This document shows, piece by piece, positions 12,132-42,498 of a stretch of 56,273 nt of DNA. This DNA comes from Deltaproteobacteria bacterium. GTDB taxonomy: Bacteria > Myxococcota_A > UBA9160 > SZUA-336. Both the position numbers and the translations under genes were made by a program. Under the pieces are notes generated by a model that worked only from the letters and a program-made list of their open reading frames with translations, did no database searches and was not told the DNA's origin. Within the stretch, counting starts at the first letter, position 1, and the number at the start of each line of letters is the position of its first letter. Location: the NCBI GenBank assembly GCA_016875225.1, contig VGRW01000018.1, positions 1 through 56,273 on the forward strand, in the 5' to 3' direction.

Positions 12132-12208
12132 CGGGGCGTAGCGCAGTTTGGTAGCGCGTCTGAATGGGGTTCAGAAGGTCCCCGGTTCAAATCCGGGCGC
12201 CCCGACCA
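12132..12208 (+). tRNA. tRNA-Pro (anticodon GGG)
   Basis: 77 nt with encoded CCA. The acceptor CGGGGCG (12132-12138) pairs with CGCCCCG (12198-12204), followed by A and CCA. The anticodon stem TCTGA/TCAGA encloses loop ATGGGGT, giving anticodon GGG, and the T-arm is CCCGG-TTCAAAT-CCGGG. The first base C pairing with G72 is the known bacterial tRNA-Pro signature. The last 22 nt overlap, on the opposite strand, the end of the pseudouridine synthase gene. Confidence 0.97.
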
Positions 12209-27556: not shown

Positions 27557-27631
<75 letters not shown>

Positions 27632-39365: not shown

Positions 39366-40787
39366 TCAGCTCGCGCGGGGCGCGGCGACGCCGAGCAGCG
39401 AGTGCGGCGTGCACCCGGTGACGTCCACTTGGAGATAGCTCCCGAGCTCGATCGGCTCCGTGGCGCGGAAGTTCACGATTCGGTGCTCAGGACTGCGACC
39501 GGTCAGCTGGCCCGAGCCCTGCCGGCTCGAGCCTTCGACGAGCACCTCCGTCCGCCTGCCGACAAGCGCGCCGTGCGCATCGAGCGTGAGCTGGCGCTGC
39601 AGATCTTGAACGCGCTCCAGACGAGCTTGCACGACGGCGTCGTCGAGCTCGCCGAGCCGATGGCGCTCTGCCGGGGTGCCGGGTCGCTCGGAGTACTTGA
39701 ACGAATAGCTGTCGGTGAAGCGGACCTCGTCCATCAGCGCGAGCGTCTGTTCGAAATCCGCCTCGGTCTCGGTCGGGTAGCCGACGATCAGATCGGTCGT
39801 GATCGCGATCCCGGGCCGCGCCTGCCGGACCCGCTCGATGACCTCGAGGTAGGTCTCTCGGTCGTAGCGGCGGCTCATGGCCTCGAGCACCCGGGACGAG
39901 CCGCTCTGCACGGGCAGGTGCAGATGCGGGCACAGCTCGGGGACCTCCGCGAAGGCGCGGACCAGCTCAGGGGTGACGAAGCGAGGGTGCGGGCTCGTGA
40001 AGCGGATTCGCCGGATTCCAGGGATCTCGGCCACCCGTCGGATCAGGTCGGCGAACGCGAGCTCACCCTCGACCTGTCCCGGTCGGGCGCGGCCGTAGGC
40101 GTTCACGGTCTGGCCGAGAAGCGTGACCTCGCTGGTTCCGGCCGCGGCCAGGACCCGGATCTCCTCGACGATCCGGGCGCTCGGGCGGCTCACCTCGCGG
40201 CCGCGGGTCCTGGGGACGACGCAGTAGGAGCAGAAGAGGTCGCAGCCCTCCATCACGGTGACGAAGGCGCGCCCGGGCGTGGGCGAGGCATATCCGGGGT
40301 GTCGTCCGGGCAAGTCGAAGCGGGTCCCGGCCGGGTCGTCGTAGTCGACCCGCAGGCTGCGCTCGCGCTCGCGAGCCGCGCGAACCATCGCCGGCAGATG
40401 CACCAGGTTCTGCGGGCCGAAGGCGAAGTCGAGCCGTGGAAAGCGGCGCAGCAGAGCCTCGCCCTCCTGCTGCGCGACGCAGCCTCCGACGCCGACGATC
40501 AGGCCCGGCTCGGTGCGCTTGCGCGCGAGCAGGATGCCGAGCTCCGTATAGAGTCGGTGCTCCGCCTTCTCGCGGACCGAGCAGGTGTAGATCACGACGA
40601 CGTCGGCGGCCTCGCATCGATCGCTCGCGGTCATTCCCGCGTGGTGCAGAAGATTGGCCATCTTCTGGGCGTCGTGCTGGTTCATCTGACAGCCGAAGGT
40701 GAGGACGTGGAATCGCCCCGAGGGGAGAGCTTCGAGCGTTGGTCGAGCCGGCACCTCGCTGGAAAAGTCGCGATCAGGCGAAGACAT
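39366..40787 (-). CDS. miaB: tRNA-2-methylthio-N6-dimethylallyladenosine synthase
   Basis: 473-residue radical-SAM methylthiotransferase acting on i6A37 of tRNAs. Auxiliary-cluster cysteines C33 (FGCQMN), C69 (YTCSV) and C103 (GGCVAQ); radical-SAM cysteines C182, C186, C189 (CDLFCSYC); C-terminal TRAM domain (VLVEGSSRQGSGQLTGRSPEHRIVNF). The ATG has a GAGGAA ribosome site. Its 301-bp upstream region holds the putative small RNA on the opposite strand. Confidence 0.96.
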   Translation of the reverse strand: MSSPDRDFSSEVPARPTLEALPSGRFHVLTFGCQMNQHDAQKMANLLHHAGMTASDRCEAADVVVIYTCSVREKAEHRLYTELGILLARKRTEPGLIVGVGGCVAQQEGEALLRRFPRLDFAFGPQNLVHLPAMVRAARERERSLRVDYDDPAGTRFDLPGRHPGYASPTPGRAFVTVMEGCDLFCSYCVVPRTRGREVSRPSARIVEEIRVLAAAGTSEVTLLGQTVNAYGRARPGQVEGELAFADLIRRVAEIPGIRRIRFTSPHPRFVTPELVRAFAEVPELCPHLHLPVQSGSSRVLEAMSRRYDRETYLEVIERVRQARPGIAITTDLIVGYPTETEADFEQTLALMDEVRFTDSYSFKYSERPGTPAERHRLGELDDAVVQARLERVQDLQRQLTLDAHGALVGRRTEVLVEGSSRQGSGQLTGRSPEHRIVNFRATEPIELGSYLQVDVTGCTPHSLLGVAAPRAS

Positions 40788-40864: not shown

Positions 40865-40892
40865 TTGACATCGCCGACCGTCCCGGCATAAC
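40865..40892 (+). promoter_or_regulatory. Candidate promoter of the 40899-41072 RNA
   Basis: TTGACA (40865-40870, exact -35 consensus), a 16-nt spacer, then CATAAC (40887-40892, 4/6 to TATAAT). No protein gene starts downstream on this strand; what follows is the structured region. Confidence 0.5.
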
Positions 40893-40898
40893 CTGTCC

Positions 40899-41072
40899 AC
40901 AGTCGGGCACCCATCGATAGGAGACAGGATCCGACGAAGTTCTCACGGAGAAGGCGGTGGAGACGACATTTCGGCTTTGAAATGTCCAACCTCTCACCCC
41001 CCACAGTCGCCACCGCCCTCTCCGACCCATCGACAGCCCCGGTAACCTGACGGTTGCCGGGGCTGTTCGCGT
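40899..41072 (+). ncRNA. Putative structured small RNA of about 175 nt
   Basis: This is most of the only gene-free stretch above 300 bp (40788-41088). A consensus-type promoter leads in and a hairpin closes it. Between them are a 14-bp stem with one mismatch, 40947-40960 (GGAGAAGGCGGTGG) with 41010-41023 (CCACCGCCCTCTCC); a perfect 8-bp hairpin inside it, 40965-40986 (GACATTTC/GAAATGTC); and an outer pairing GTCGG (40902-40906) with CCGAC (41022-41026) or, alternatively, with CCGAC at 40931-40935. It does not match the 6S, 4.5S, tmRNA or RNase P motifs I know. Size and rod-like form are 6S-like, but I cannot assign it. No open frame in it is convincing. The structure also reads on the minus strand as a miaB leader, so strand is inferred from the promoter. 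Confidence 0.45.
41034..41065 (+). terminator. Strong hairpin, possible terminator of the small RNA
   Basis: CAGCCCCGGTAACC (41034-41047) pairs with GGTTGCCGGGGCTG (41052-41065) over a TGAC loop, 14 bp with one G-T pair. On the plus strand it is followed by TTCGCGTTCT, partly T-rich. It could also end the VWA-gene transcript coming from the other side. Confidence 0.55.
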
Positions 41073-41088: not shown

Positions 41089-42498
41089 TCAGAGCACGAG
41101 CTTGTCGACCAGTCGCGTGAGCTGCTTCAGGTTCCGGCACTCCTCGGCGACGTCGGTGTACGGCAGATACTTGTCCATCACGCTGTCACCGAACCCCCAG
41201 GCCCCGGGCGCCTCCGGATTGATCCAGATCACGTTCTTCGCCTTCGAGTGCACTTCGCGCAGGCACCACGCGCGCGGATCGTTGTAGTTGTTTCGCGCGT
41301 CCCCGATCACGACGACGGTGGTCCGGTTGTCGATCGCGGAGAGGAAGTCGCGCCAGAAGGTGTGGAAGGCCATGCCGAAATTGGAGCGCGTGTAGGGGTT
41401 GATCACTTCGCCGCCGTCGAGCGCCAGGTCGATCGCATCGAAGATGTCGTGGTCGCGGAAGAGCTGGCTGACCTCGCCGAGCTCCGCGACGAAAACGAAG
41501 CTGCGCACCTTGGTGAAGCAGTCCTGCAGGCTGAAGATGAACTGCAGGAAGAAGCGCGAGACGTTCGCCACCGAGCTCGAAATGTCGCAGAGCACGACCA
41601 GCTTGGGCTTTTCCTTCTTGCGTTGCTTGAAGACCAGCTCGAACGGCACGCCCCCGTGCGCCATGTTCCGCCGCATGGTGGTTTTCAGGTCGAACTTGCC
41701 GCGGCGCTCGCGCTTGCGGCGCATCGTGATCACGCTCTTGAGCTTCTGCGCCAGCCGTTGGACGACCTCGCGGAGCCGGCGCAGGTCGTCCTCGGTCAGG
41801 TTGTAGAAGCTCTTCTCGAGCAGGCTCTCGCGGCGGAACCGCTCGATGTAGTCGTGGTTCTGCTTGTCGAGCTCGCGCTCCGCGAACTGCCGCACCGCGC
41901 GACGGGCGGCCTCCTGGACCGCCTTCAGCAGCGCCTCGAGCTCGCCGAGGCGCGCCTCGTCCATTCCCTCTTCGCGCAGACGCTCGATCAGCGACTTCAG
42001 CTCGCCGCCCGCCCCTTCCATGTCCATCTGCTCGATCATCCGACGCGAGAAGAAGCCGATCTGCAGCATGTTCCGGATGTTCTGGACCTCGGACTGCTCC
42101 CCGGCCTGCTGGATCAGCTGCTCGAGCGCGTTCGCGTCCATGCTGAGGAGCGCCTTGGCGAGCTCGGACAGGTCGATGTCCATGTTCTCGAGCATCTCGC
42201 GCAGCTGCTCGAGCAGCCGCTCGAGGTCGAAGTCCCCGGGCATGCCGCCGAGCGCCTGCTTCAGCTCGCTCTGCAGCTGGTCGTGGAAGCCGGACCAGAA
42301 CAGGTCGAAGAGCCGGTCGTAGGTATCGATGTCGTCGCCGCGTTTCACCATCGTGGCGCGCAGAGCGTCCTTGAACAGCTCGCGGTCCTCGAGCGGCATC
42401 TCGTCGATGGCGGTGAAGGCGTCGAGCGACTCCGCCACCGATACGCGCACGCCTGCCTTCCTCAGCAGGTTCGTGAACTCGACGATCTTCTTCTCCAT
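41089..42498 (-). CDS. CoxE-like VWA domain protein
   Basis: 469 residues. A long helical, Glu/Leu-rich N-terminal part (1-260) is followed by a von Willebrand factor A domain with MIDAS DISSS at 305-309, TRSNFGMAFHTFW and the third element VVIGDARNNY. This is the usual partner of MoxR AAA+ ATPases (as in CoxD/CoxE) in assembly or remodelling of enzyme complexes. The target here is unknown. The start is 1 bp after the MoxR gene. Confidence 0.9.
   Translation of the reverse strand: MEKKIVEFTNLLRKAGVRVSVAESLDAFTAIDEMPLEDRELFKDALRATMVKRGDDIDTYDRLFDLFWSGFHDQLQSELKQALGGMPGDFDLERLLEQLREMLENMDIDLSELAKALLSMDANALEQLIQQAGEQSEVQNIRNMLQIGFFSRRMIEQMDMEGAGGELKSLIERLREEGMDEARLGELEALLKAVQEAARRAVRQFAERELDKQNHDYIERFRRESLLEKSFYNLTEDDLRRLREVVQRLAQKLKSVITMRRKRERRGKFDLKTTMRRNMAHGGVPFELVFKQRKKEKPKLVVLCDISSSVANVSRFFLQFIFSLQDCFTKVRSFVFVAELGEVSQLFRDHDIFDAIDLALDGGEVINPYTRSNFGMAFHTFWRDFLSAIDNRTTVVVIGDARNNYNDPRAWCLREVHSKAKNVIWINPEAPGAWGFGDSVMDKYLPYTDVAEECRNLKQLTRLVDKLVL

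Follow-up and report, generated by a model that had tools for sequence, protein, structure and literature searches.

The window (the whole 56,273-nucleotide stretch of DNA analysed) contains a real non-coding RNA gene at positions 40865-41066. This gene probably encodes a stand-alone trans-acting small RNA of about 170 nt that would pair with the ribosome-binding sites of the ftsA and ftsZ mRNAs and lower the synthesis of FtsA and FtsZ. In the proposed mechanism, a long stem would display a single exposed C-rich strand (CCAACCUCUCACCCCCCA), which would base-pair with the ribosome-binding sites of the two mRNAs (GGGGGGUGAGAG..AUG); the resulting duplex would cover the Shine-Dalgarno sequence and exclude ribosomes, leading to less translation of both proteins. 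The sequence evidence suggests that the RNA controls cell division, and we infer its transcription, the formation of the duplex in the cell, the repressive effect and a timing or physiological signal for that effect. The first-pass annotation had proposed a structured RNA of about 175 nt at this site and had given it no function. The existence of such an RNA (about 170 nt) is supported by conservation throughout the class, compensatory base changes, a fixed position relative to miaB, a conserved promoter and a terminator of varying sequence, and the evidence presented here points to the ftsA and ftsZ mRNAs as its candidate targets.

The promoter elements noticed on first reading, TTGACA (40865-40870, plus strand) and CATAAC (40887-40892, plus strand), were confirmed by direct reading of the sequence, as was the 16-nt spacer between them. 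The consensus of the upstream alignment across the class is GTTTGACA...CATAAT, and a TTGACN-N15-19-(-10) pattern was present in 44 of the 71 flanks of RNA loci, versus 0 for the opposite strand. Transcription, the start of which was placed from the promoter spacing, would yield a 5' leader of about 45 nt (40899-40945), differing in length and sequence among species. This leader precedes a long stem (hereafter referred to as P1), the 5' strand of which (CGGAGA-A-GGCGGTGG-A-GAC; 40946-40964) pairs with a 3' strand (GTC-G-CCACCGCC-C-TCTCCG; 41006-41024) via positions 40946-40951, 40953-40960 and 40962-40964 on one side and 41006-41008, 41010-41017 and 41019-41024 on the other. The long stem described earlier therefore stands, but not as 14 perfect base pairs, because one of the two mismatches of P1 (A40952/C41018 and A40961/G41009) lies within that segment. 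The inner hairpin (hereafter referred to as P2; GACATTTC / GAAATGTC; 40965-40986) is a perfect 8-bp helix, as first reported, with 40965-40972 pairing with 40979-40986. Next to it is the exposed 16-nt motif AACCTCTCACCCCCCA (40988-41003), the predicted target-pairing strand, with its run of six C residues at 40997-41002. The closing hairpin also proved to be present, as a terminator-like structure at 41033-41066, with a sequence that varies freely among species while its pairing is retained. The T-tract following it is poor in the window genome (TGTTCG) and good in many relatives, and 61 of 71 loci have a T-run where one would be expected. The RNA gene, on the plus strand throughout, is flanked by miaB (UPF0004, Radical_SAM and TRAM domains; 39366-40787, minus strand, start at 40787) and by the VWA_CoxE gene (41089-42498, minus strand, end at 41089). 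As both neighbours lie on the minus strand, no plus-strand protein gene follows the RNA, in agreement with the initial description.

The plus strand folds with a minimum free energy of -87.6 kcal/mol, whereas dinucleotide-shuffled sequences averaged -59.4 ± 4.0 (z = -7.0) and none of the 200 folded as well; the opposite strand has a z value of -4.1. Both P1 and the terminator hairpin were recovered by RNAalifold from 72 sequences, and 15 of the 24 pairs had changes on both sides. In a shorter alignment, with a structure that we specified, 89% of the cells were paired, versus 43-56% when the partners were slid by one to three columns, and the covariation score was 0.174 versus 0.127 for shuffled alignments (0 of 500 as high). 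The sequence of the long stem is nearly invariant across the class, and the changes observed in P1 are compensatory: UA to CG in family f5, in G019 (f3) and in part of genus g26 (f4), GC to AU in genus g8 of f1, and AU to GC in G035 (f9). These changes occur in separate clades and therefore represent several independent events. The 16-nt motif is predicted to be unpaired, with a probability of 0.99-1.0 in the window RNA and a median of 0.89 for the class. Long inverted repeats would also be compatible with an element acting as DNA or with a gene for a small protein, and short ORFs are indeed found on both strands; the compensatory changes and the shared orientation of promoter and terminator nevertheless make this reading highly improbable, as does the pattern of variation, in which indels flank an invariant 16-mer within which no third codon position varies.

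A 201-nt DNA query identified a single copy in the genome from which the window is derived. It also matched 80 of 148 related genomes, although some of the lowest-scoring matches were short and unrelated. Across 74 loci, miaB was found divergently upstream wherever the contig extends to it, and is the neighbour in nearly all homologous loci; the VWA gene often occupies the opposite side, as a convergent neighbour in most, not all, loci. Of these 74 loci, 73 retain an intact copy of the unpaired 16-mer AACCUCUCACCCCCCA and one has a single extra C, despite the MiaB proteins of the RNA loci being only about 50-70% identical to that of the window, indicating strong constraint. With a covariance model, the RNA was detected in 76 of the 91 genomes of the class (GTDB UBA9160, Myxococcota), at one copy per genome, and a sample of roughly 290 genomes from the rest of the phylum yielded no copy. 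This conservation in relatives, together with the compensatory stem changes, removes one of the objections raised at the outset, and another possibility, that the region is the end of a mobile element, was rejected on the grounds that the RNA is single-copy and syntenic. Most of the 15 class genomes giving no match lack miaB or have a miaB cut at a contig end, and the absence is mostly an assembly gap. In G039 (C253), G054 (C425), G062 (C26) and G068 (C245), the RNA appears to be absent because the assemblies break at or near it or inside miaB; the strong hairpins of the RNA may hinder assembly at these breaks. Matches to an 18-mer outside the class (L116, L136, L139, L164, L182 and L183) corresponded to no real structural match, scoring at most 33 bits versus 65-109 for true copies. 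In three alphaproteobacterial MAGs (Co_bin.209, Albidovulum and Loktanella), the exact 18-mer of the motif, CCAACCTCTCACCCCCCA, or its complement, forms an outer arm of the SRP RNA (L116 4707-4724, L136 99-116 and L139 2530-2547). A link with SRP was rejected, as the class's own SRP RNA lacks the complement of the motif; the resemblance is probably a coincidence between GC-rich helix ends.

The RNA family is missing from Rfam 15. At gathering scores, nothing in the database matched the RNA locus, and relaxing the threshold to E = 10 yielded no credible match, consistent with the initial impression that it resembled no known family, and the sole Rfam matches within the window are two tRNA genes (12132-12205, plus strand, and 27560-27631, minus strand). 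The covariance model of the SRP RNA (RF00169) did not match the locus, and the SRP RNA of this genome lies on another contig (G000:C39). Likewise, the 6S RNA model (RF00013) did not match here. The likeness to 6S RNA is indeed one of size only, as had been suspected: G008 and G024, both of which carry a copy of the RNA, have a separate 6S RNA on another contig. No match to the actinobacterial 6C RNA appeared in Rfam at E values of up to 10. B11, as presented in PMC10470900 and in Mai et al. 2019 as cited therein, has two hairpins with C-rich loops acting on G-tracts in mRNA 5' regions. The RNA described here shares with 6C and B11 a C-rich strand, predicted here to face G-rich mRNA 5' regions, but this strand is single and asymmetric, located beside the inner hairpin within one long stem. 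Pxr of Myxococcus xanthus, from the same phylum, is likewise a conserved small RNA with a functional exposed loop, and PMC5684412 attributes to it a sigma-54 promoter, three stem-loops and a location adjoining pxrR. None of these three features was found for our RNA, which has a sigma-70-like promoter and a different anatomy and adjoins miaB. PMC6234868 describes PmaR of Agrobacterium as "spoon-like", with a long stem and a single-stranded loop in which C-rich regions pair with targets; PmaR mainly activates its targets and mostly binds away from the Shine-Dalgarno sequence. The two RNAs, compared by structure description only, have in common a long stem and a C-rich single-stranded pairing region, but belong to different phyla. 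EcpR1 of Sinorhizobium, also from a different phylum, reportedly targets dnaA and gcrA, whereas the dnaA site is not conserved for the RNA studied here. EcpR1 is characterised in PMC4414408 as a broadly conserved trans-acting RNA modulating the cell cycle. No description of our RNA was found in the open-licence literature.

Candidate targets were sought by searching six whole genomes for the complement TGGGGGGTGAGAGGTTGG, with up to three mismatches. Apart from the RNA genes themselves, the matches included one coinciding exactly with the ribosome-binding site of G016 ftsZ (TGGGGGGTGAGAGATG), one in the dnaA leader of G014 and one upstream from a TatA/B-like gene of G020. The ftsZ target was not, therefore, guessed, because it arose from a whole-genome search; G016 was the discovery genome and the other genomes constituted the follow-up. 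A single highly complementary partner gene was rejected, as no site with at least 15 of 18 matching positions was common to all six genomes. When ftsZ and dnaA were looked for in 30 genomes, GGGGGGTGAG(AG) was found directly 5' of the ftsZ start codon in most of them; the class carries GGGGGGUGAG at ftsA and ftsZ. Complementarity to ftsA and ftsZ across the class is far above that to other genes. The longest perfect run between the loop and ftsZ averaged 9.19 nt over 27 genomes and was at least 9 nt in 17 of them, versus a mean of 4.66 for 357 background genes, the only one of which to reach at least 9 nt was ftsA of G016 (12 nt). None of 2000 shuffled loops attained the ftsZ mean, and when the C6 block was kept and the rest shuffled, the observed value was attained by one of 2000 for ftsZ (18 genomes) and four of 2000 for ftsA (17 genomes); these shuffle counts, like the genome counts, do not allow for relatedness between genomes and should not be read as probabilities, but the rarity of such matches with the C6 block retained indicates a fit to more than a G-run. 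In the division regions of 20 genomes, ftsA, ftsZ or both had 9-14 perfect pairs in 18 genomes, from 9 of 10 families, and both genes had at least nine pairs in 9 of the 20. Among other genes, at least nine pairs were found in only 2 of 393, and ftsZ and ftsA of G016 ranked first and second among 395 better-called genes of two genomes. The two genomes without at least nine pairs in either gene, G000 and G007, belong to family f1, that of the window, in which perfect runs extend over only 6-8 nt though the loop is unchanged. Complementarity over the ftsZ ribosome-binding site, the hallmark of an ftsZ-repressing RNA, was thus found, in this shorter form in f1, where regulation may be weaker or may occur via other targets. 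RNAcofold predictions did not show the motif paired with the site, this tool being unable to represent loop-to-external pairing inside a stem.

The 16S anti-Shine-Dalgarno end is UCACCUCC, and the loop (UCACCCCCC) resembles it. Part of the match to ftsA and ftsZ stems from the Shine-Dalgarno nature of the sites. The RNA might accordingly be a protein-binding scaffold or sponge, with the C-rich strand as the protein site and the ftsA/ftsZ fit reflecting nothing other than strong Shine-Dalgarno sequences facing an anti-Shine-Dalgarno mimic; an invariant 16-nt strand in a near-invariant stem exceeds the needs of a short seed. We nevertheless consider this explanation improbable. The ftsA and ftsZ sites have a G where the ribosome would favour an A, the perfect ribosomal form GGAGGTGA was found at none of 395 sampled gene starts, and the predicted duplex at ftsZ of G028 is much stronger with the RNA loop (-32.6 kcal/mol) than with the anti-Shine-Dalgarno sequence (-15.2 kcal/mol). 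G011 (family f2) also argues for pairing with mRNA. This genome has an intact miaB and, upstream from it, a divergent relative of the RNA, with a stem GGAGGAGCGACGGA / TCCGTCGCTTCTCC, an inner stem CGGCA / TGCCG and then ACAATCCCCCCCCC. This relative scores only 16 bits with the covariance model, a value not exceeding that of antisense palindrome matches, so that its homology rests on position and architecture. The G011 strand (AAUCCCCCCCCC) retains the C-run (C9), within which it reads AAUCCCCCC, forming nine perfect pairs with the G011 ftsA site GGGGGGAUU, versus seven with the usual loop. Predicted energies with its own and the usual loop are -19.8 versus -15.9 kcal/mol for ftsA and -25.5 versus -19.8 kcal/mol for ftsZ. 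Loop and ftsA site thus seem to have been altered in step.

The predicted action of the RNA on ftsA and ftsZ resembles that of DicF and DinR, but none of the tests made revealed homology of the RNA to a known family. DicF, encoded by the Qin prophage of E. coli, represses ftsZ by base-pairing at the ribosome-binding site of this gene (PMC5069750), and DinR of Klebsiella is an Hfq-dependent RNA cut from the 3' end of dinI that represses ftsZ by the same type of pairing (PMC10907235). The blocking mode proposed here is modelled on these accounts of DicF and DinR at ftsZ, and its manner is akin to that reported in the sources cited above for the C-rich loops of B11 and PmaR. Unlike DicF and DinR, the RNA is a free-standing gene present throughout a class, with predicted sites on ftsA besides ftsZ. 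Most of what is known about the regulation of ftsZ by RNA comes from enterobacteria, in which the regulators are a prophage RNA and a fragment processed from the end of an mRNA. The mode of action would be a known one, and it is the class-wide conservation and joint targeting of ftsA and ftsZ that would be new. The RNA may, with roughly even chances, be a core-genome small RNA of the entire class dedicated to division, which sets FtsA and FtsZ synthesis through matching ribosome-binding sites and, in a divergent family, has changed along with these targets; the ftsZ regulators so far known are, by contrast, carried by prophages or restricted to particular species. In this uncultured class, sequence evidence links a free-standing RNA gene with an invariant pairing strand to ftsA and ftsZ; if the proposed role is correct, it adds a family missing from Rfam, with a function assigned without a cultured host.

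A broader role is conceivable, in which the RNA would be a general C-rich regulator like the actinobacterial 6C and B11 RNAs, with many G-rich Shine-Dalgarno targets, ftsA and ftsZ being two members of a large regulon and the main role possibly lying elsewhere. The pattern GGGGGTGAG-N0-9-ATG occurs 2-18 times per genome, versus 0-6 for the reversed pattern, and the site is present at the starts of genes for FtsK-like, TatA/B-like, CTP-synthase-like, DnaB-like and topoisomerase-VI-B-like proteins (names assigned by sequence recognition, with Pfam confirmation for FtsK_4TM); one dnaA leader has a 15-nt match, and it is the C-run that survives in G011. A wider regulon is possible, but a general regulator of this kind seems unlikely: in about 70 such places read, the recurrent genes were ftsA and ftsZ, no other gene was seen with the site across many genomes, and the rest of the loop, outside the C-run, fits these two genes as well. 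The preferred reading therefore remains that of an RNA acting on ftsA and ftsZ. The perfect complements of the motif in G014 and G058 lie in or near dnaA leaders; dnaA was rejected as a conserved target, with a 15-nt match in G014 (L221), a 10-nt match in G058 (L307) and none in most other genomes. The sequence GGGGGTGAGAGATG occurs at least nine times in G012 (contigs C27, C314, C355, C385, C386, C387, C458, C465 and C653; L453), and these copies are probably a repeated element rather than a gene set, because several lie within 80 bases of a contig end. Finally, in the window's own genome, GGGGGTGAGAGCAAATG lies 5' of a 40-residue, very lysine-rich ORF (L387 / L419, G000:C5:42485-42501).
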